From the IMG/VR virus record IMGVR_UViG_3300042430_000472, positions 1 to 38,434 of that record: 38,434 nt of DNA; one strand, 5' to 3'. The stretch is from a virus. Below, piece by piece: positions 297 through 38,434 of the stretch. Below the pieces are notes generated by a model. It was given only the letters and a program-made list of their open reading frames with translations. It did not search any database and was not told where the DNA came from. The position numbers and the translations under genes were made by a program. Every line of letters begins with the position of its first letter. Within the stretch, counting starts at the first letter, position 1.

Positions 297-460
297 GAAA
301 CGATCCGTTCAGGTATAACCTTCTTACCTTGGCGGATCGGCTTGGCAAAACCATTGCAGAGATTGAACTTATTTCAATTGAAGAGTATAATGAATGGGTC
401 GCTTATTTTAACCTGAGCGAAGAAAGGCAAAAGCGTGGCGGCCCAAGACCAAAGAATTGA
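293..460 (+). CDS. T-domain extension of the G-T tail chaperone (frameshift product)
   Basis: After -1 slippage, 55 more codons are read, giving a fusion of about 167 residues. The extension contains LLTLADRLGKTIAEIELIS and EEYNEWVAYF, typical of the T part of phage tail assembly chaperones, which contacts the tube protein and tape measure. There is no start codon with a ribosome site in this frame, so it should be made only as a fusion. Its end overlaps the first 26 bases of the tape measure gene, which starts on GTG inside it. Confidence 0.82.
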   Translation, partial: LRNDPFRYNLLTLADRLGKTIAEIELISIEEYNEWVAYFNLSEERQKRGGPRPKN

Positions 461-2318
461 GTTTCTGTTTGCTGCTCAGGTTTCTGGGCAGGCTGAACTT
501 AAAAAGCTTACTGACGCCGTTGACAGTCTTCGTAAGGAAATGGAGGCGCTTAAAGCCGCTAATGGTGGTGTTGGCGCAGCAACGCAGCAGTTCACAAGGT
601 CTATAGGCAATGCAAGCAGCCACGTTCAAGCATATCAAAAGCACTTAGATGCTCAAGCCAAGGCGATGCGGAATCATCGCCAAGGTACGCAGCAACTTGG
701 TATGCAGTTCAATGACTTGGGTACGTCTATTTCTACTGGTGCAAGCCCAATACAGGCGTTCAATCAACAGATAGGGCAAATTGGTTACGCCATGTCCATG
801 ATGGGCGGCAAAATGGGTGCAGTTGGCTCATTCCTTGCTGGTCCTTGGGGTGCTGCGATTACAATCGCCACAATGGTGCTTGCCCCGTTGATAGAGGGTC
901 TGTTTAAGACAGGTGATGCCGCTAAAAAAGCTGCCGAAGAAACAGAAAGGCTTGAAAAGCACGAAAGAACATTGGCTGGGATTGCCAGTGATCTTGTTGT
1001 TGCCCGCGCCCGCATTGACCAAGCAATGGGCAAAAATGTAGATAGCTATTTAGTTGGACAGCGGGAGTTAGTCAATTTAGCAAGGATTGACATCGCGTCT
1101 GCAAAAGAGTCGATTAGGGCTGCTAAATTGCGGCTTGAAGCCGCGAGAGCAAATATTGCAGCCAACAAAACAATGCAGACAATGGGTACTGGTCTTCGCG
1201 CTCCCGGTATTTCAATTCTTGGCAGAGTAAGGGAATATTTCCAAGATAATGAAGGAAAAATTCAAAAAGAAAATGAAGATTTAAGTGCAATTGAAGTTTC
1301 AATGCGAAAGCTGGAACTTAGCCTAAATAGTAGCCGTGGCGACAGTATGGAGCGAGCTAATTCCATAGCTGATAAAAATGCACAAAAGGGCTTGGCTGCT
1401 GCACGAAGGGCTGAAGCTGAAGCCGAAAGAATTGCAAAAGAAGCTGAAGCTGCGCGTGAAAAAGAAGCAAACTCAATTCAATCCTTCATGGACAAAATCG
1501 GCAAAGTGGGAATGAAGGAAATTCCTGCTTATCAGCGCGATATTGCCATGTTGGAAAAAGATTTCTTTGAACTGTCCAAGGTTGGACAGGCTGCGACCAT
1601 TGCGCCCTTTAAGGCTGCGGTGGAATCCATTGAGATGGCGCACTACAGCGATATGCTCAAGGCTGATGCCGAAAACGCCGAAAAGATGTTAAATGATCTT
1701 CCTGATTTTGTTCCATCTTTCACCAAAGAAATGGAAGATATTATATCTAGGGCAGATGAAATGGATAAGTCGTTTGAAGCAATCGGAAACACAGTCAGCG
1801 ATGCCTTTAAGGGTATGTTGACTGGCGCTATGTCTTGGAAAGACGGAATGCGCAGCCTTATCGGAGCCGTCATTGATGAATTGTGGAAGCTGTTTGTTGT
1901 TCAGCAAATTGTTGGCCTTATTAGTGGCGCACTTCGTGGCGGAACTGCGGCCCCTAGTGCTTCTACCGCCAGTCAAAGCATCGGTATGAGTACTCCAGGC
2001 AATTTTAAGCCACTTACATTAAGGGCGAGAGGTGGCCCTGTATCCAATAAAACCCCATACATGGTTGGAGAGCAAGGACCGGAACTATTTGTTCCTAGTG
2101 GTAATGGCACAATCATTCCCAACAACAACATGCGTGGCGGTGGCGGCGGCAGCAGCTTTAACATCAGCGTAGATGCCCGTGGCTCAAACGATCCAGCCGC
2201 AGTTCGCGCTCAGGTACAGCAGGGTATCCTTGAGGCTGCTCCTGCAATTATCGCAGCGGCAGAGTCACGCACAATGGCTAGTATGCGTAGGCCGCGACTT
2301 GGTGGAGTTATGCAATAA
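435..2318 (+). CDS. tail tape measure protein
   Basis: A 627-residue protein that sets tail length and is ejected with the DNA. A hydrophobic Gly/Ala-rich segment at about residues 120-157 could insert in the host membrane. Alanine- and glutamate-rich coiled-coil stretches lie near residues 165-250 and 310-350. The C-terminal part carries the common tape-measure ending with RARGGPVSN and MVGEQGPELFVPS near 530, followed by a Gly run. At about 0.15 nm per residue the tail would be roughly 90-95 nm, an inference. The start is GTG with GAAAGG a suitable distance upstream, overlapping the chaperone fusion. Its stop shares one base with the next start (TAATG). Confidence 0.92.
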   Translation: MAAQDQRIEFLFAAQVSGQAELKKLTDAVDSLRKEMEALKAANGGVGAATQQFTRSIGNASSHVQAYQKHLDAQAKAMRNHRQGTQQLGMQFNDLGTSISTGASPIQAFNQQIGQIGYAMSMMGGKMGAVGSFLAGPWGAAITIATMVLAPLIEGLFKTGDAAKKAAEETERLEKHERTLAGIASDLVVARARIDQAMGKNVDSYLVGQRELVNLARIDIASAKESIRAAKLRLEAARANIAANKTMQTMGTGLRAPGISILGRVREYFQDNEGKIQKENEDLSAIEVSMRKLELSLNSSRGDSMERANSIADKNAQKGLAAARRAEAEAERIAKEAEAAREKEANSIQSFMDKIGKVGMKEIPAYQRDIAMLEKDFFELSKVGQAATIAPFKAAVESIEMAHYSDMLKADAENAEKMLNDLPDFVPSFTKEMEDIISRADEMDKSFEAIGNTVSDAFKGMLTGAMSWKDGMRSLIGAVIDELWKLFVVQQIVGLISGALRGGTAAPSASTASQSIGMSTPGNFKPLTLRARGGPVSNKTPYMVGEQGPELFVPSGNGTIIPNNNMRGGGGGSSFNISVDARGSNDPAAVRAQVQQGILEAAPAIIAAAESRTMASMRRPRLGGVMQ

Positions 2319-9890: not shown

Positions 9891-12800
9891 ATGGCAAATA
9901 AGGTAAAGATCAAAAGGTCGGCAGTATCTGGGAAAGTCCCATTGGCTGCCGATCTTGAGCTTGGCGAACTTGCGATTAATACGTTCGACGGCAAGCTTTA
10001 CACCAAGAAAGACAATGGCACGGCGTCCGTTATTGAGATCGGCGCTAGTGGTGGTGGATCAGGGACGGTAACATCTGTAGCTGCTTCTGGCGGCACTACT
10101 GGTCTGACGTTCACCGGATCACCAATCACTACAACCGGCACTTTGACGCTTGGCGGCACTCTGGCTGTAGCTAATGGTGGCACGGGTGCGACTACCGCAA
10201 CTACCGCCCGTTCAAACCTTGGCGCTGCCGCATCTGGCGCTAATGCTGACATTACATCAATGACAGCCATTACAGGCGGAATCTCATCGCCTGACTTTGT
10301 GCAGTTTGATACCACGGCGACTGTCACCCCTGCCGCTGGACGCCTATATTTCAACGACGGTGAAGGTGGTCTGTCCTACATGCTCAAGGGCGGCAATGTC
10401 GTTCAAGAGGTAGGGCAATCGCAACAAGTGCTGGTTTATAACGGCACAGGCGCGACCTTGAATAAAGGCCAGGTGGTTTACAGCAATGGCGCACAGGGCC
10501 AACGCCCTACGGTTGCGCTTGCATTGGCCACAAGTGACGCGACATCTGCGCGAACGCTTGGTATTGTCGCTGAGAGCATTGCTAATGGCGCAGAGGGCTG
10601 GGTCACTAGCCTTGGCATCATTGAGAATATCGACACATCGGCATTTACTGCTGGCGCACAGCTTTATCTGTCAGGATCGACTGCTGGTGGTTTGACCGCA
10701 ACTAAGCCTGTTGCTCCGATCCACATGGTCTATGTTGCGCGTTGTATCAAAAGCAATGCTTCATCTGGCCGTCTGTTTGTTACTGTTCAAAACGGCTATG
10801 AGCTTGATGAACTTCACGATGTTTCTGCTGTATCTCCAGCAAACAATGACGGCATATTTTATAACACATCAACAAGCTTGTGGGAAAAGAAGTCGATTGT
10901 AACGGCGCTTGGTTATACGCCATATAATGCCACAAACCCAAGCGGCTATATTACGAGCAGTGGTTCAATTACTGGCAACGCATCTACGGCGACAACGCTG
11001 CAAACTGCGCGGACGCTTACTATCGGCAGCACTGGCAAGACCTTTAATGGCTCTGCTAACGTGGCTTGGACTACATCTGAAATTGGCGCTGAATTTCAGC
11101 AAACTTTAGGTATCCCACGCAACAACTTAGGCGACCCCACAGTCCGTGAAGCGGCACTATTTGACGCGCAGTTTACCAACAAAACTGAACTTTATGACAT
11201 AAATAACCTATGGTTTGAAACCTCCGCAGACAACGTAACTTGGACGGCGCTTGCTGGTGTTACGGATACCATGAAGCGGGCATTCCTAACTGGAGATGCT
11301 GGCACTGTCATTAACATTGCATATGGCACGGCCTACTTCCGCATTCGCATGAGGGCAACGAGCTACGTTTATCTTAATGCGCTTTATGCTTATTGGTCCG
11401 GCCAAGGACATAGCACGCAAGTGCAAATGTTTAAAAAACATGATAGCGGCGCGTGGACGCAGCACACGAACTCAACCGCCCTTGTTAACTCATGGCCTGG
11501 TCATTTATACTTACCTTTCAGCACGATACCATGGAACTCTACCGCTACACTTGGCACTCACTGGCATGAAATATATGCCTTGTTCATTCCAACTTGGAAC
11601 GCGACTTATCCCACCAACAGCATCGCTCTTTATCGCGGTCAATTTTGGGGTGGCTATCCTTCTGGAAAGCGCAATATATACAGCACTAATGAATTGGGCG
11701 GCGTCACCTTCCCTAACACGGTCACTGCCACAGGTATTACAGGGCCGCTAACGGGCAACGCGACTACCGCTACTACCCTGCAAACGGCTCGCACAATCAA
11801 CGGCGTATCCTTTAACGGTTCTGCCGACATAACAGTTGCGGATGGAACAAAGTTGCCTCTTTCTGGCGGCACCATGACTGGAGCCATTACGTTTGCTGGC
11901 GCACAGACATGGCCTACATTCAACCAAAACACCACAGGCACAGCAGCAAACGTCACTGGAACTGTGGCTATAGCAAATGGCGGAACAGGATCGACGACTG
12001 CGGGTGCTGCCCGTACAGCCCTTGGCGCGACCACCATCGGCGCAAATGTTTTCACGCTAACTAACCCAAGCGCAATTACGTTTCCACGCTTCAACGCTGA
12101 CAATACTGTGTCCGCTCTGGATGCAGCGACTTTCCGTTCAGCTATCGGTGCTGGAACTAGCTCTACTACAGGCACGGTCACATCAGTTGGTGGAACAGGG
12201 ACTGTAAATGGCCTGACGCTTACTGGTAGTGTCACAACATCTGGAAACTTGACCCTTGGCGGTACGCTTTCTGGCATTAACCTTGCAACACAGGTTACAG
12301 GGACACTGCCTGTTGCTAATGGCGGCACTGGCGCTGCCACGCTTGCAGCTAACAACGTCTTGCTGGGCAATGGTACAAGCACAATCCAAGCTGTTGCTCC
12401 TGGTACTTCAGGCAATGTTCTTACCAGTAATGGCACAACATGGGTATCTTCTGCTGCGGCTGGCGGATCGGTGGCTTACCCACAGAACATCCAAAGCGGC
12501 AACTACACGCTCGTTCTGGCTGACGCTGGTAAGCACATCTATTCCGCCAACACTGGCGCACAGACCCTTACAATCCCAACGAATGCGTCGGTGGCGTTTC
12601 CTGTCGGCTCGTTGATTACGATTGTGAACATGGGTTCCAATAAAATCTTATTATCAGCTTCTGGTGTGTCGGTTATTCCTAACGGCAGTATCACTGCCTT
12701 ACCATCGGCGCAGATACCATCTGGAACATCGGTTCAGTTATTAAAGACGGCTACTAATACTTGGAACGCAACCTTTGGCACTGTTGCTGCCAATACAGTA

Positions 12801-13580
12801 ACCGCAAGCTACCTCGTCATTGCTGGCGGCGCTAGTGGTGGTCGGAGTAACGGTGGCGGTGGTGGTGCTGGCGGATACCTTGAAAGCACGACAACACTAA
12901 GCGCAGGAACTACTTACACCATAACCGTCGGCGGTGGAGGCGCGGCTGTTTCGACCGCAACTCTAAGGGGTAACGACGGCAACAGTTCCTCGCTGTCTGG
13001 CACTGGGGTAAGCGTAACAACAACTGGCGGTGGTGGTGGCGGCTCACAAGGCGGGACTGCGGCAGGACGCAACGGTGGTTCTGGCGGTGGTGGTGCTTAC
13101 CCAAGCGGCGCGGGTGGAACACCTACATCTGTTCAAGGTTTTGCTGGCGGCTTAGGCGCGACTGCAAGCGGAAATGGTGGTGGCGGCGGCGGTGCGAACG
13201 GTGTAGGTAGGGCTGCGGATGCGGCAAGCCTCCCATGTTGGGGTGGTGGCGGCAAATCTTCTTCAATTACAGGAACGGCAGTATCACGCGGCGGTGGCGG
13301 GGGTGGCGGTGGTCTTGACAGGTCCGGCGCTGGCACAAGTGGCGGAGGCAATGGGGCCTATACTTCCAATGCAGAAGCCGGAACAGCCAACACTGGCGGA
13401 GGTGGTGGCGGCGGAAGCAGTGGCCTTGGCACAAGTAGCGGCGCTGGCGGCTCTGGTGTTGTCATCCTTTCAATCCCGACTGCCGAATATTCTGGTGTAA
13501 CAACTGGTTCTCCAACGGTTACGACAAGCGGCTCTAACACAATTCTGCAATTCAATTCATCGGGAAGCTACACAGCATGA
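9891..13580 (+). CDS. long tail fibre with Gly-rich adhesin tip
   Basis: A 1229-residue fibre with a strong ribosome site (AAGGGA). The N-terminus (KVKIKRSAVSG, LELGELAINTFDGKLYTKK) is a second Mtd-N-like attachment domain, related to that of the gene before. The shaft carries repeated TLGGTLAVANGGTGATTA-type blocks (at about residues 85, 695 and 810) and a carbohydrate-binding-like insertion near 405-590. The last 250 residues (from about 975, SYLVIAGGASGG) are extremely Gly-rich, with GGGGGAGGY and AGGSGVVILSIP, the pattern of Gly-rich phage adhesins that fold as packed polyglycine-II helices. It is the probable receptor-binding fibre. Its stop overlaps the next start (ATGA). Confidence 0.78.
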   Translation: MANKVKIKRSAVSGKVPLAADLELGELAINTFDGKLYTKKDNGTASVIEIGASGGGSGTVTSVAASGGTTGLTFTGSPITTTGTLTLGGTLAVANGGTGATTATTARSNLGAAASGANADITSMTAITGGISSPDFVQFDTTATVTPAAGRLYFNDGEGGLSYMLKGGNVVQEVGQSQQVLVYNGTGATLNKGQVVYSNGAQGQRPTVALALATSDATSARTLGIVAESIANGAEGWVTSLGIIENIDTSAFTAGAQLYLSGSTAGGLTATKPVAPIHMVYVARCIKSNASSGRLFVTVQNGYELDELHDVSAVSPANNDGIFYNTSTSLWEKKSIVTALGYTPYNATNPSGYITSSGSITGNASTATTLQTARTLTIGSTGKTFNGSANVAWTTSEIGAEFQQTLGIPRNNLGDPTVREAALFDAQFTNKTELYDINNLWFETSADNVTWTALAGVTDTMKRAFLTGDAGTVINIAYGTAYFRIRMRATSYVYLNALYAYWSGQGHSTQVQMFKKHDSGAWTQHTNSTALVNSWPGHLYLPFSTIPWNSTATLGTHWHEIYALFIPTWNATYPTNSIALYRGQFWGGYPSGKRNIYSTNELGGVTFPNTVTATGITGPLTGNATTATTLQTARTINGVSFNGSADITVADGTKLPLSGGTMTGAITFAGAQTWPTFNQNTTGTAANVTGTVAIANGGTGSTTAGAARTALGATTIGANVFTLTNPSAITFPRFNADNTVSALDAATFRSAIGAGTSSTTGTVTSVGGTGTVNGLTLTGSVTTSGNLTLGGTLSGINLATQVTGTLPVANGGTGAATLAANNVLLGNGTSTIQAVAPGTSGNVLTSNGTTWVSSAAAGGSVAYPQNIQSGNYTLVLADAGKHIYSANTGAQTLTIPTNASVAFPVGSLITIVNMGSNKILLSASGVSVIPNGSITALPSAQIPSGTSVQLLKTATNTWNATFGTVAANTVTASYLVIAGGASGGRSNGGGGGAGGYLESTTTLSAGTTYTITVGGGGAAVSTATLRGNDGNSSSLSGTGVSVTTTGGGGGGSQGGTAAGRNGGSGGGGAYPSGAGGTPTSVQGFAGGLGATASGNGGGGGGANGVGRAADAASLPCWGGGGKSSSITGTAVSRGGGGGGGGLDRSGAGTSGGGNGAYTSNAEAGTANTGGGGGGGSSGLGTSSGAGGSGVVILSIPTAEYSGVTTGSPTVTTSGSNTILQFNSSGSYTA

Positions 13581-33846: not shown

Positions 33847-33899
33847 TTGTTGCGTAATTTGGTGTTATTGTTTCGCTGAAACGCTTTTTGGAGCAACTT

Positions 33900-35777
33900 A
33901 TGTCAGAAGTTGAAGATGTCGTAGAAACAGAGGCTGTCGAAGCTGAAGTTGCCGTAGAGGTTGAGGCCGTAGAGGCTGAAATCGTTGAAGAAGCGACTGA
34001 GGAAGAGCGCAAGTCTCCGGTAGAAGTGCTTCACCGCGCCATCCACATGCAGCCAAAAGCGATCTCGGAAGAGAAGCGCACTGTTGAGATTGCCGTATCT
34101 TCTGAACTGGCGGTTGACCGCTCGTTTGGTCGTGAAATACTGGTCCACGAAAGCCAAGCCATTGATATGGGCTTTGTTGCTTCGGGCCGTGCGCCACTGC
34201 TTCTGGACCATGATCCAGAGCGTCAGATTGGCGTTATTGAATCCGTGGAACTCTCTGAGGACCGTGTTCTTCGAGCCAAAGTCAGGTTCGGGCGCTCGGC
34301 ACTTGCTCAGGAAGTTTTTCAGGACGTTGTCGATGGTATCCGGTCGAATGTGTCGGTTGGCTATCGCGTCAACAAAATGGAGCGGTCAACGACGAATAAA
34401 GATGAATATCTTGTTCGTTCTTGGTCGCCCCTTGAGGTATCTGTCGTTTCTATCCCTGCTGACCCGTCAGTTGGCGTGGGTCGTAGCGCGGCTGCTCTCG
34501 AACCCAAACCTACCATTGAACCATCCATCAAGAAGGAAGTCAAAATGACTGACGAAGTAAACTTGGATGCGGTTCGGGCCGAAGCTGCTGAAGCTGCTGC
34601 CAAGAACGCATCTGCAATCATCGAACTCGCCGCTCGTCACAACAAGCGTGACCTTGGCGATGCCGCCCTCCGTTCGGGCAAGAGCATTGAGCAATTCCGT
34701 GGTGAACTGCTTGACGTAATTGGTTCGGACACGCCGCTTGCAAACGAAAACATTGGTCTGACGAAAAAAGAAATCCGTCAGTTCTCGGTTGTTCGTGCAA
34801 TTGCTGCTCTCGCAAACCCAAGTGACCGTCGCTTGCGCGAAGCTGCTGCATTCGAGTTTGAAGTCTCGGAAGCTGCTGCACAGCGTTATGGCCGTGGCGC
34901 ACAGGGCGTTATGCTCCCAACCGACATTCTCGGCGTCTGGAAGCGTGACCTGAACACCAGCGATGACAACGAACTGGTAGCAACGAATTTGCTTGCTAAC
35001 GAGTTCATTGACGTTCTGCGTAACTCCTCGTCCGTAATGCAAGCTGGTGCGCGTATGCTCCCTGGTCTGCAAGGCAACGTAGCAATCCCTAAAAAGACTG
35101 CCGCTGCTTCGTCGGGCTGGATCAGCACTGAAGGTGGCGCTGCCAGTGAATCTGAGGCAACTTTCGGCACAGTGTCGTTGGCTCCAAAGAACATTGGTGC
35201 ATTCACCGACATGACCCGTCAGTTGATCCTCCAATCGACTCCTGCCATTGAGCAGTTGGTCCGTGACGATTTGACACAGGCTCTGGCCTTGGCAATCGAC
35301 AAGGGCGCATTGGAAGGTTCGGGATCGTCCGGTCAGCCAACAGGTATCTTGAACACCTCCGGTGTCAACAAGCCAACCGCGTTTGCTGCTGCTGTACCAA
35401 CCTTTGCTGAAATGGTTGCTTTGGAAACTGCTGTTGCAGAAGACAATGCTTTGTTCGGTAACTTGGCTTACATCACGGACGCAGCCACTTACGGTGGTCT
35501 GAAGACGAAGAGCAAGGACACTGGTTCGGGCATGTTTGTTCTGGAGAACGGTCAAGCTAACGGTTACAACGTAATCCGCACTCAGCAGTCAACTGCTGGT
35601 AACGTTTACTTTGGTAACTTTGCTGACTGCTTGATCGGCATGTGGGGTGGCCTCGACCTAACGGTTGATCCATACACCGCATCGACAAGCGGAACTGTTC
35701 GCATTGTTGCGCTTCAAACTGTTGACGTTGCAGTACGTCACGCAGTTTCGTTCGCATACAACAACGACACGGTATAA
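33900..35777 (+). CDS. prohead protease fused to HK97-fold major capsid protein
   Basis: A 625-residue fusion starting at ATG behind GGAG; a TTG four codons upstream is less likely. The first 35 residues are acidic (VEAEVAVEVEAVEAEIVEEA). Residues about 40-190 are an S78-type prohead protease with catalytic H104 (LLLDHDPERQIG) and S152 (SNVSVGYRV). After a short scaffold-like helix (NLDAVRAEAAEAAAKNASA) the HK97 capsid fold follows, with QGVMLPTDIL, GWISTEGGAASESEATFGTV and LDLTVDPYTAST. The protease probably cuts itself from the capsid subunit. An internal ATG (34545) has its own ribosome site. Confidence 0.88.
   Translation: MSEVEDVVETEAVEAEVAVEVEAVEAEIVEEATEEERKSPVEVLHRAIHMQPKAISEEKRTVEIAVSSELAVDRSFGREILVHESQAIDMGFVASGRAPLLLDHDPERQIGVIESVELSEDRVLRAKVRFGRSALAQEVFQDVVDGIRSNVSVGYRVNKMERSTTNKDEYLVRSWSPLEVSVVSIPADPSVGVGRSAAALEPKPTIEPSIKKEVKMTDEVNLDAVRAEAAEAAAKNASAIIELAARHNKRDLGDAALRSGKSIEQFRGELLDVIGSDTPLANENIGLTKKEIRQFSVVRAIAALANPSDRRLREAAAFEFEVSEAAAQRYGRGAQGVMLPTDILGVWKRDLNTSDDNELVATNLLANEFIDVLRNSSSVMQAGARMLPGLQGNVAIPKKTAAASSGWISTEGGAASESEATFGTVSLAPKNIGAFTDMTRQLILQSTPAIEQLVRDDLTQALALAIDKGALEGSGSSGQPTGILNTSGVNKPTAFAAAVPTFAEMVALETAVAEDNALFGNLAYITDAATYGGLKTKSKDTGSGMFVLENGQANGYNVIRTQQSTAGNVYFGNFADCLIGMWGGLDLTVDPYTASTSGTVRIVALQTVDVAVRHAVSFAYNNDTV
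34533..34547 (+). promoter_or_regulatory. internal ribosome site and ATG for capsid protein alone
   Basis: AAGGAAG (34533-34539) stands five bases before an in-frame ATG at 34545, at the border between protease and capsid domains. Translation here would give a 410-residue capsid protein with the delta-like helix but no protease, so one gene could set the ratio of the two products. Confidence 0.6.
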
Positions 35778-35837: not shown

Positions 35838-36044
35838 ATGCAATACAAGTGCATCCGTGGCGTAATAACATCGCAAGGCCCACTAAGCGTGGGTGATGTT
35901 GCTACCCTTCCACATGGCGAAGCCTTGGTGCTTATCGCTCAAAAGAAGATTGTAATCTTTGAAGAGGCTGTCCGCGTAGCTGAAGCCCCAAAGGTTGAGC
36001 ATCGCGATCCTGTCATTAAGCGTAGTCCTAAGAATGGGCGTTGA
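35838..36044 (+). CDS. small head protein, unknown
   Basis: A 68-residue protein. ATG at 35838 follows GGAG; an upstream ATG at 35781 would place the hairpin inside the gene and is rejected. It opens MQYKCIRGVITSQGPLSVGD and contains ATLPHGEALVLIAQKKIV, a small beta-barrel-like pattern, with a Lys-rich end. Position after the capsid gene suggests a head decoration or completion role. It overlaps the next gene by 11 bases. Confidence 0.55.
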   Translation: MQYKCIRGVITSQGPLSVGDVATLPHGEALVLIAQKKIVIFEEAVRVAEAPKVEHRDPVIKRSPKNGR

Positions 36045-36345
36045 GAGCGCAGATGATATTCTCGACTTTTTTGAGGTCGATGATTTTGCAGATACTGCCA
36101 CTTACACAAGAGTAGGTGGCAGTGCTGTTTCTGTGAACGGCATATTTGATGCCCCTCAAGCCAGCCGTGGCGCAACAGACCTAATGGACATTACGATTCC
36201 ATCGCCGCAGTTTGTTTGCCGCACTGCTGACGTACCTTTGGCCGCTGACGGGGATGAAATCATCATTCGCTCTGTCGCCTATAACGTGCGGGTTGTTTTA
36301 ACTGATGGAACTGGCGTAAGTACCCTTATTCTCGAAAAGGTATAA
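36034..36345 (+). CDS. head-tail joining protein (FII-like)
   Basis: A 103-residue protein, ATG chosen inside a longer frame. Features match lambda gpFII: an acidic N-terminal helix (ADDILDFFEVDDFAD), VNGIFDAPQ, SPQFVCRTADVPL, DGDEIIIRSVAYNVRVV and DGTGVSTLILEKV. gpFII sits at the head-tail interface and lets the tail dock. It follows the small head protein and precedes the two tail terminator genes, the same order as lambda FII-Z-U. Confidence 0.7.
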   Translation: MGVESADDILDFFEVDDFADTATYTRVGGSAVSVNGIFDAPQASRGATDLMDITIPSPQFVCRTADVPLAADGDEIIIRSVAYNVRVVLTDGTGVSTLILEKV

Positions 36346-36346
36346 C

Positions 36347-36862
36347 ATGAGCCACGTTCGGCAACAGATCAGAGATTATGCTGCCGACTTGTTGGTTAGA
36401 TTTATCTATGATAGGTTCGGGATTGTAATATTAGATCGTTTTAATGTGGGCCTTAAAGAGAGGCAACCACTTCAGATACTTAATACAGGAACGCTTTACA
36501 AATTCCGTCGTTACGCTCTTGATGAAGAGCGTCTTCCCGTTCTTCTTGTTTATACGACAAATGACATAACTAACTTGTCTGGTATCGGAAATCGAACACT
36601 TTTTCACAGCCTTGAACTCAGAGTTGATGTTATAAATAAGGGATCAAGCATTAATATTTTTGAAAACATCGAGCAATTTTGTGCGGAACTTAATAATGCA
36701 ATTGAAGAGGACTATCAGTTAGGAGGTCTTGTCAAAAGTTGTATATTGTCGCAATCTGAATTTGATGTTAAAACGTCTGGCGAAAAAGCCATTGGGGTTG
36801 GCACAATGATTTTTGATGCTCGTTATATGACCGCAGTAGATGAATGCAGGGTATCAATCTAA
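36347..36862 (+). CDS. tail terminator-like protein, copy 1 (U-like)
   Basis: A 171-residue protein with AAAAGG before ATG. It starts MSHVRQQIRDYAADLLVRF, contains YKFRRYALDEERLPVLLVYT and QLGGLVKSCILSQSEFDVK, and matches the place and size of lambda gpU, the ring that ends tail growth. The next gene is a clear paralogue: YK-x-R-x-YALD-x-x-x-LP-x-x-VYT, I/V-x-x-KGSS, QL-x-GLVKSCILS and GEK-x-x-x are shared. It carries an insertion near residues 20-50 that the second copy lacks. Confidence 0.7.
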   Translation: MSHVRQQIRDYAADLLVRFIYDRFGIVILDRFNVGLKERQPLQILNTGTLYKFRRYALDEERLPVLLVYTTNDITNLSGIGNRTLFHSLELRVDVINKGSSINIFENIEQFCAELNNAIEEDYQLGGLVKSCILSQSEFDVKTSGEKAIGVGTMIFDARYMTAVDECRVSI

Positions 36863-37305
36863 TGTCACACATTAATAACCAAATACGCGATAGGCTTTTT
36901 GAAATCATAAATGATTTAGCCTTTTTTTCTGGTCGCGTTTATAAGATGCGCTCTTATGCATTGGATGATGCAAAATTACCAGCCGCTGTTGTGTATACAA
37001 ACAGTCAGAATAGTTCGCTTGCAACTATCGGCACAATGACGCTCATGGCTTCTCTTGAAGTTATTGTTGAGGTATTTATCAAGGGTTCAAGCGGCACTGT
37101 TGTAAACGAAATTGATGATGCTTGCGCTTTGATAGAAAATGCAATTGGCGCTGATTTCCAATTATCTGGATTGGTAAAATCCTGCATTTTGTCTAGATCA
37201 GACATCAATATTAATGTTGAGGGCGAAAAGCCAGTTGCTAATGCGCGGTTGTCTTACTCTGTTCAATATGTTACATCATTGGCTGACTTGGAGACTGCGC
37301 GATGA
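36862..37305 (+). CDS. tail terminator-like protein, copy 2 (U-like paralogue)
   Basis: A 147-residue protein starting at the ATG that shares a base with the previous stop. It begins MSHINNQIRDRLFEIINDLA and runs through YKMRSYALDDAKLPAAVVYT, FIKGSSGTV, QLSGLVKSCILSRSDINI and GEKPVANARLSYSVQYVT, collinear with copy 1. By eye about 40% of aligned residues are the same, so the duplication is old. One copy may terminate the tail and the other serve at the neck, or both form a mixed ring. Confidence 0.7.
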   Translation: MSHINNQIRDRLFEIINDLAFFSGRVYKMRSYALDDAKLPAAVVYTNSQNSSLATIGTMTLMASLEVIVEVFIKGSSGTVVNEIDDACALIENAIGADFQLSGLVKSCILSRSDININVEGEKPVANARLSYSVQYVTSLADLETAR

Positions 37306-37448
37306 AGATGGTTAAGGTATATAACAAAACTGGCGATGAAATACTTGCCTGTGAGTGTGATCTAGAGCAATATCAGTCTAACGGCTGGGATGTTAAGAAG
37401 GCTGCAAAGCCAAAGGTTCAAGCAGAGAAAGTAGAGGAGTCTGAGTAA
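37302..37448 (+). CDS. small protein, unknown
   Basis: A 48-residue protein coupled by ATGA to the second U-like gene and by TAATG to the first tail tube gene. It reads MKMVKVYNKTGDEILACECD then LEQYQSNGWDVKKAAKPK and ends acidic. Small proteins with a GW and a Lys/Glu tail in this slot occur in other phages, with no known role. The tight coupling on both sides supports it as a real gene. Confidence 0.6.
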   Translation: MKMVKVYNKTGDEILACECDLEQYQSNGWDVKKAAKPKVQAEKVEESE

Positions 37449-37846
37449 TGGCTACGCACACTGGTTCAGAAGGCACTGTTCGCGTTGGACTTAATGCCAT
37501 TGCAGAGATTCGTTCTTATTCTGTCGAAGAAACGGCTGATACAGTCGAAGATTCAAGCATGGGCGACGCATACCGCACTTTTAAAACCACGCTGAAGGGC
37601 TGGTCAGGATCGGTTGACGTATTCTGGGATGAGACTGACACCAATGGTCAGGTTGCTATGACCGTAGGCACAGAAGTAACCATTAACTTCTTCCCTGAAG
37701 GTGCAACGGCTGGTCAAACTGAAAAGTATTACTCTGGCACAGCTATTGTCACTGGTCGCACTGTTACTGGTAGCTTTGACGGCATGGTCGAATCCACAAT
37801 CACGCTTCAAGGCACTGGTGCTTTGACGCTGTCCACCTTGGCGTAA
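37448..37846 (+). CDS. major tail tube protein, copy 1
   Basis: A 132-residue beta-rich protein, THTGSEGTVRVG then YSVEETADTVEDSSMGDAYR, TTLKGWSGSVDVFWDE and SFDGMVESTITLQGTGALTL. This is a known tail tube family: hexameric rings stack to form the tube. The gene just after is a close copy. The two proteins are nearly the same over the first 63 residues and differ in the middle (residues 64-95) and at the end. The ATG overlaps the previous stop as TAATG. Confidence 0.82.
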   Translation: MATHTGSEGTVRVGLNAIAEIRSYSVEETADTVEDSSMGDAYRTFKTTLKGWSGSVDVFWDETDTNGQVAMTVGTEVTINFFPEGATAGQTEKYYSGTAIVTGRTVTGSFDGMVESTITLQGTGALTLSTLA

Positions 37847-37856
37847 GGACACTTAA

Positions 37857-38249
37857 ATGGCTACTCACACTGGTTCTGAAGGCACTGTTCGCGTTGGCGC
37901 AACTAATGCTGTTCTTGAAATTCGCTCTTATTCGGTTGAAGAAACTGCCGATACAGTCGAAGACTCAAGCATGGGCGACGCATATAGAAGTTTTAAGACC
38001 ACTTTAAAGGGTTGGTCAGGATCGGTTGATGTGTTCTGGGACGAGTTGGACACCACGGGTCAGGGCGCATTGGTTCCCGGTTCCGAAGTCAACGTTCGCT
38101 TCTACCCAGAAGGCACGACGACGGGCGATGTTTATTACACAGGTCAAGCCATTGTTACTGGCAAGACTATCACAGGCAGCTTCGATGGTATGGTGGAATC
38201 CACTATCACTGTTCAAGGAACAGGGGCTTTGACCAGCGCGGCTGTATAA
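37857..38249 (+). CDS. major tail tube protein, copy 2 (tandem paralogue)
   Basis: A 130-residue copy of the preceding tube protein, with its own AAGGA ribosome site 8 bases before ATG. Shared stretches include THTGSEGTVRVG, SYSVEETADTVEDSSMGDAY and SFDGMVESTIT; by eye about three quarters of residues are identical. Differences cluster in the segment after VDVFWDE (LDTTGQGALVPGSEVNVRFY against TDTNGQVAMTVGTEVTINFF). Both frames are intact, so both proteins should be made. It precedes the G/G-T chaperone gene, the standard place of the tube gene. Confidence 0.82.
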   Translation: MATHTGSEGTVRVGATNAVLEIRSYSVEETADTVEDSSMGDAYRSFKTTLKGWSGSVDVFWDELDTTGQGALVPGSEVNVRFYPEGTTTGDVYYTGQAIVTGKTITGSFDGMVESTITVQGTGALTSAAV

Positions 38250-38264
38250 TTAAAGGATATTAAT

Positions 38265-38434
38265 ATGAGTATTGCCAAGCGTATCGCAGAGCGAACATCG
38301 AATAAGCGTCACATCGACGTTGCAGAATGGGGTGATGATGGCAAGCCAGAGAAGGTCTATTACGGCCCTCTGCTTGCTGGTGAATTGAACCGCATCCAGC
38401 GCAAGCATCCTAACTTTTTAAGTTCCACATCATT
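38265..38434 (+). CDS. tail assembly chaperone G-like, 5' part
   Basis: The 5' portion of the chaperone gene that continues at the start of the window. An AAAGGA site stands 8 bases before ATG. It begins MSIAKRIAERTSNKRHIDVA then EWGDDGKPEKVYYGPL. The zero-frame product is 112 residues and the frameshift product about 167. It follows the second tail tube gene by 15 bases, the order tube, G, G-T, tape measure. Confidence 0.85.
   Translation, partial: MSIAKRIAERTSNKRHIDVAEWGDDGKPEKVYYGPLLAGELNRIQRKHPNFLSSTS
38308..38434. repeat. terminal direct repeat, right copy
   Basis: Exact copy of the first 127 bases, lying inside the chaperone gene. One copy should be removed when closing the circle, giving 38,307 bp. 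Confidence 0.95.

Follow-up and report, generated by a model that had tools for sequence, protein, structure and literature searches.

The window, the whole stretch of 38,434 nucleotides that was analysed (virus record IMGVR_UViG_3300042430_000472), ends with a copy of its own start. This direct terminal repeat of 127 bp identifies it as a closed circular siphophage genome of about 38.3 kb, and on the circle the tail cluster at the right end runs on into the chaperone and tape-measure genes at the window start. From head to tail, the order is a capsid-protease fusion, an 87-amino-acid gene, the Hc1 stopper, two terminator-like genes (U1 and U2), a gene of 48 codons (x48), two tail tube genes (T1 and T2), a chaperone, the tape measure and the distal tail protein. 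The features needed here, all on the plus strand, are the following.

36037 to 36345 (start provisional), plus strand: Hc1 stopper or head-closure protein, lambda gpFII-like (phrog_82 head closure Hc1, E 1.7e-19; Pfam Phage_attach, E 2.5e-17)
36347 to 36862, plus strand: U1, derived tail-terminator paralog, 171 aa (phrog_4204; terminator fold in the AF2 model; own clade)
36404 to 36475, plus strand: insertion in U1 of about 24 residues, at about residues 20-43 (column table of 35 U1 sequences)
36862 to 37305, plus strand: U2, tail terminator, 147 aa (phrog_4204, E 2.7e-20; own clade)
37302 to 37448, plus strand: x48, 48-aa gene (open reading frame; no family match)
37448 to 37846, plus strand: T1, tail tube paralog, 132 aa (phrog_1407; T1 clade; fixed differences)
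37857 to 38249, plus strand: T2, tail tube paralog, 130 aa (phrog_1407; AF2 and Foldseek; T2 clade)
38265 to 38434, plus strand: tail assembly chaperone-like gene, 112 aa, crossing the circle junction and ending near window base 296 (position and joined translation; relatives annotated 'tail assembly chaperone')
435 to 2318, plus strand: tape measure protein, 627 aa (phrog_1538, E 1.1e-17)

All five open reading frames from U1 to T2 are intact. The U1-U2-x48-T1 run is coupled through TAATG, ATGA and TAATG overlaps, and T2 has an AAGGA site of its own. A preliminary description of this DNA had reported the five genes, and the intact frames and separate coupling or ribosome sites of the four U and tube genes, just so, and its estimates by eye of about 40% identity for the U pair and about 75% for the tube pair came close to the measured 38% and 79%. 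Chance or an assembly artefact was ruled out as the source of the two-plus-two layout, which is found in 34 distinct loci. The small x48 product has no significant match in family searches (PHROG, Pfam); the gene was recognised in 53 of 53 two-tube loci, compared with 18 of 114 loci with one terminator and one tube. Upstream of the cluster, at 33888-35777 of the window, the major capsid protein and its maturation protease share one open reading frame (S78 peptidase and HK97-type capsid), for which the listed start is a TTG with an in-frame ATG a few codons downstream.

Both tube proteins match the major tail family phrog_1407 (T1, E 2.5e-15; T2, E 1e-14), and their 79% identity to each other (E 1e-71) is unevenly spread, with 94% in the first 63 residues, which had already been described as nearly the same, and 64% in the remainder. 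In a tube tree from which the ambiguous single-tube row L175 was omitted, the T1 copies make one clade (support 96/97) and the T2 copies another (99/89). Synonymous divergence (dS) between T1 and T2 of the same genome has reached saturation, or is undefined, in 33 of the 53 genomes, and T1-T2 identity at fourfold sites is, in nearly every bin, no higher within genomes than between them (differences of at most 0.07, mostly downward), so that the copies must be old. A comparison of fourfold-degenerate sites within and between genomes detected no gene conversion between T1 and T2, and these identities and the saturated dS led to the rejection of gene conversion and of a recent duplication. The tube doubling is not recent, and the likeness of the first halves is a matter of constraint. 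Both genes have a dN/dS of about 0.08-0.09, like single-copy tubes, and T1 and T2 are told apart by residues near-fixed across 53 genomes (A/L 20, N/T 67, N/R 81, E/D 91, K/V 92 and L/V 130, with L20 and R81 on the T2 side) and by a 2-aa insertion in T1 after residue 90 in T2 numbering. Judged from these sequence comparisons, T1 and T2 are old tube paralogs that have both been selectively maintained.

Two relatives stand outside this pattern. One locus (L245:6001-6797) has two tube genes that both fall outside the main T1 and T2 clades; an AU test did not reject their joining those clades (p-AU 0.27 and 0.25), the 2-aa insertion is found in the T1 of this locus too, and the pair may have branched off early after the same duplication or may stem from a second one. 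In the other (L175:6584-6979), the sole tube gene of the block mixes T2-like residues with T1-like or ancestral ones. Since some single-tube relatives have the same residues at its 'T1-like' sites, it may be an early single copy of the T2 line rather than a T1/T2 hybrid, with a recombinant or an assembly chimera as the alternatives.

The nearest solved tube by sequence is that of Roseophage vB_DshS-R4C (E 4.8e-14, 28% identity), and the AF2 model of T2 (pLDDT 88) also finds it by Foldseek (8gtb, E 1.6e-8, TM 0.78). By sequence family for both proteins, and by a fold with the long stacking loop for the T2 model, T1 and T2 belong with the tail tubes; Met39 of the stacking loop (R4C M38) is nearly invariant, and the T2 model matches injection-system tube proteins as well. 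The published subunit contacts of the R4C tube (PMC10276861) were carried over to T1 and T2 through the sequence alignment, and all that follows from them depends on this single homologous structure at 28% identity. At the seven inter-ring contact sites, T1/T2 divergence is 0.001 against a mean of 0.133, a value reached or undercut in 0.03 of circular shifts and in 0.00-0.01 of them when neighbouring residues are included. Acidic residues facing the lumen are common to T1 and T2, although this is a weak test. At the intra-ring contacts, some of which are divergent sites (T2 residues 70, 73 and 128), T1/T2 differences showed no significant enrichment (0.23-0.38 of circular shifts were as high), so mixed rings are not specifically favoured. 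The simplest reading of the R4C structure is that T1 and T2 would be able to stack on each other, and that they differ at the periphery, the N-terminal hairpin and the C-terminus.

The terminators are a much less similar pair (38% identity, E 2e-34), and a 24-residue gap in their alignment arises because U1 has an insertion. Both match the tail-terminator family phrog_4204 (U1, E 9e-14; U2, E 3e-20), and each forms its own clade in the U tree (U1 100/100, U2 100/99), on stems of 0.99 for U1 and 0.27 for U2. U2 is closer than U1 to the single-copy terminators of relatives. The N-terminal 'VRQ' of the single terminators is kept in U1, and the C-terminal DxETxR end is better kept in U2. The AF2 model of U1, of moderate quality (pLDDT 74.5), has the terminator fold, with the R4C terminator 8gtf as the top Foldseek match, together with lambda gpU (3fzb) and 8iyd (E <= 6e-7); U1 is thus placed in the terminator (gpU) family by sequence and predicted fold, and U2 by sequence family. 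The U1 insertion lies between helix 1 and strand 1. Its most conserved stretch is the motif FIYDRFGIVIxDRF, and R23, F24, I26 and R31 are invariant in 35 of 35 sequences. In the model it is a low-confidence loop (residues 31-50 at pLDDT 42-50), and this poor modelling suggests a possible partner-binding element. With a dN/dS of about 0.10, U1 is, on the evidence of its alignment and tree, a terminator that has diverged fast and carries the conserved insertion of about 24 residues. Variable or decayed second copies, which the preliminary description named among the signs against two tube and cap systems, are not what the relatives carry: all tube and terminator copies have low dN/dS values, indicating purifying selection. 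A single terminator with a U1-like insertion is present at L042:540-1049, where the body is 93% like the single terminator of L028 and the extra DNA amounts to about 66 bases; if that contig is right, the insertion alone is no bar to work as a sole terminator.

Relatives were collected in six scans of viral contigs that gave several hundred loci, from which 168 distinct complete blocks were counted (104 in an earlier pass). One terminator and one tube are found in 114 of these, two of each in 34, one terminator with two tubes in 19, and two terminators with one tube in a single locus, the counts being those of best-match samples and not an estimate of prevalence. In bacterial genomes only three distant loci were found, and the two tested in full both have the single layout. 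When terminator number is traced on a concatenated tube tree, at least six changes are needed, three of them forced by well-supported branches. The loci L045 and L047 have tubes that are 98-99% identical and share kilobases of similar flank, yet one has a single terminator and the other two, with both junctions inside a U gene; conversely, the terminators of L172 and L175 are 96% identical, but L172 has two tubes and L175 one. These exchanges argue against matched tube-plus-cap pairs and for module exchange. Co-change of the stopper with terminator number was limited to a few lineage-linked sites, at which L045 and L047 are identical. As far as the gene trees and junctions tell, the tube doubling and the terminator doubling are separate events in separate modules, and recombination moves the terminator cassette from genome to genome. 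The preliminary description had proposed looking in relatives for co-occurrence of the two doublings, and the combinations proved to be uncoupled. Its idea that two versions of tube and cap are used survives in part, since old, maintained paralogs make two tube types the most economical reading, and falls in the matched pairing.

Comparison with known phages shows which of this is familiar. R4C, which supplies both the closest solved tube and the top fold match of U1 (the stopper-terminator structure 8gtf), differs from the window phage in having a single terminator and a tube of 20 rings made from a single protein. The closest cultured relatives of the cluster are the Roseobacter phages CRP-811, CRP-821, CRP-823 and CRP-831, with tubes 61-64% identical; CRP-811 and CRP-823 have the gene order of the window from the capsid through the chaperone and tape measure, but the Roseobacter relatives in culture have a single terminator and a single tube, with x48 absent between them. 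No cultured phage among those identified shares the layout of the window. In the record of CRP-822 the tube gene (L130:4001-4394) is in two open reading frames, while that of CRP-823 is intact, either through a sequencing error or in reality. Lambda gpU and T5 p142 are of the same fold family as U1 and U2, but those phages have one terminator, and the conserved insertion is an addition of U1. SPP1 co-assembles gp17.1 and gp17.1* in one tube (PMC8718954), in a 3:1 ratio and from one gene with a frameshift extension (an FN3 domain), whereas T1 and T2 are complete separate open reading frames of near-equal length with no added domain.

Tandem tube paralogs as such are already present among cultured phages. 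In the actinophage major tail family phrog_2645 (Camille, Damascus and kin) they were counted at 480 places in 243 records of cultured phages, chiefly phages of Arthrobacter, Gordonia and Streptomyces, but this is another tube family: in the family search the window tube proteins matched phrog_1407 and phrog_10528, with no match to phrog_2645. Camille has three tube copies, of which neighbours are about 48% identical, and a single annotated terminator; it is also annotated with a capsid-protease fusion. The passage of a genome note that names 'two major tail proteins' gives no function for them (PMC11080557). The statement that no standard description of the layout exists was thus too broad for the tubes and holds for the terminators, as a full-text search of the open-access literature found no description of a terminator pair or of a heterohexameric tail tube. 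The terminator pair appears to be new to description, and the novelty lies mainly in this pair and in how freely single and double tubes and terminators combine.

The explanation that best fits these results, and which we consider probable, is that two tube subunits and two terminator-fold subunits are used, and that the two doublings are separate and independently inherited. With the same stacking loop and lumen residues, and with a differing hairpin, periphery and C-terminus, T1 and T2 would most likely co-polymerise round the same tape measure to give one tube with two outer or edge chemistries, in mixed rings or in separate runs. U2 would keep the single-terminator role of the relatives and cap the tube. 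U1 would most likely adjoin U2 in the neck, towards the head, as an extra ring or in a mixed hexamer, a placement suggested by gene order, which is an imperfect guide considering that T5 p143 sits elsewhere than its gene order suggests (PMC11784142). Two-tube genomes have one or two terminators, with the terminator cassette swapped by recombination. What the data show is the descent of the genes, their constraint and uncoupling, their sequence families and the predicted folds; that all four proteins are in the virion, and where, we infer. A bolder form of the preferred explanation has two obligate tube subunits whose arrangement is fixed, either as alternating hetero-rings or as two segments, topped by a pair of terminator rings that are stacked or mixed, and phages that freely exchange one- and two-ring neck cassettes; it can be offered only tentatively. 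L175, with one tube of T2-like make-up, indicates that two tubes are not always needed.

Among the rival explanations, it is conceivable, if on balance unlikely, that one tube paralog builds most of the tube and the other only a special ring or a few of them, at the start of the tube on the distal tail protein or at its end beneath the terminator. Some injection systems have two tube genes (PMC7394362), with second tube proteins making special rings, and the match of the T2 model to their tube proteins fits this, as does the fact that both paralogs have changed since the duplication; but the neighbour-ring contact sites are the very ones at which T1 and T2 are alike, and tube doubling does not track terminator number. 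That U1 is no ring component and has taken over the job of a tail completion protein of the lambda gpZ or SPP1 gp16.1 type seems doubtful. U1 does lie between Hc1 and U2, the usual slot of such a gene and the one it holds in T5 (PMC11784142), nothing else between Hc1 and the terminators encodes a tail completion protein, and U1 has diverged fast. Its fold and family are nevertheless those of a terminator, its matches being to terminator or unnamed families and none to a tail completion family, and the single-terminator relatives likewise have no gene in that slot.

As one geometry within the preferred explanation, T1 and T2 might alternate within each ring in a (T1-T2)3 pseudo-hexamer, a two-gene counterpart of T5 pb6, whose duplicated tube domain forms trimeric rings (PMC8718954; PMC11784142). 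The divergent T2 residues at R4C intra-ring contacts would suit such rings, but given the non-significant enrichment there and the lone tube of L175, we think this arrangement improbable. A dosage or redundancy effect, in which second copies merely supply more of the same protein, is disfavoured and very improbable: tube protein is needed in large amounts and T1 hardly differs from T2 in its first half, but near-fixed paralog-specific residues persist over saturated synonymous divergence and U1 has a conserved new element. Two complete tube-and-cap sets, T1 with one U and T2 with the other, can be set aside as strongly disfavoured and scarcely credible, for although 34 of 35 two-terminator loci have two tubes, 19 loci pair two tubes with one terminator, one locus does the reverse, and the repeated changes in terminator number and the L045/L047 comparison point the same way.

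Explanations of tail tube length and symmetry usually assume a single tube protein and a single cap. Natural phages with all four combinations of one or two of each, including near-identical tubes with differing terminator number, offer a ready comparison for the role of an added tube subunit or terminator-fold protein, and give reason to re-examine the second 'major tail protein', so far unexplained, that many cultured actinophages have. Elsewhere in the window, at 9891-13580, a tail-fibre-like open reading frame of 1229 aa contains a 91-nt internal repeat (10155-10245 and 11958-12048) whose two copies are 70% identical.
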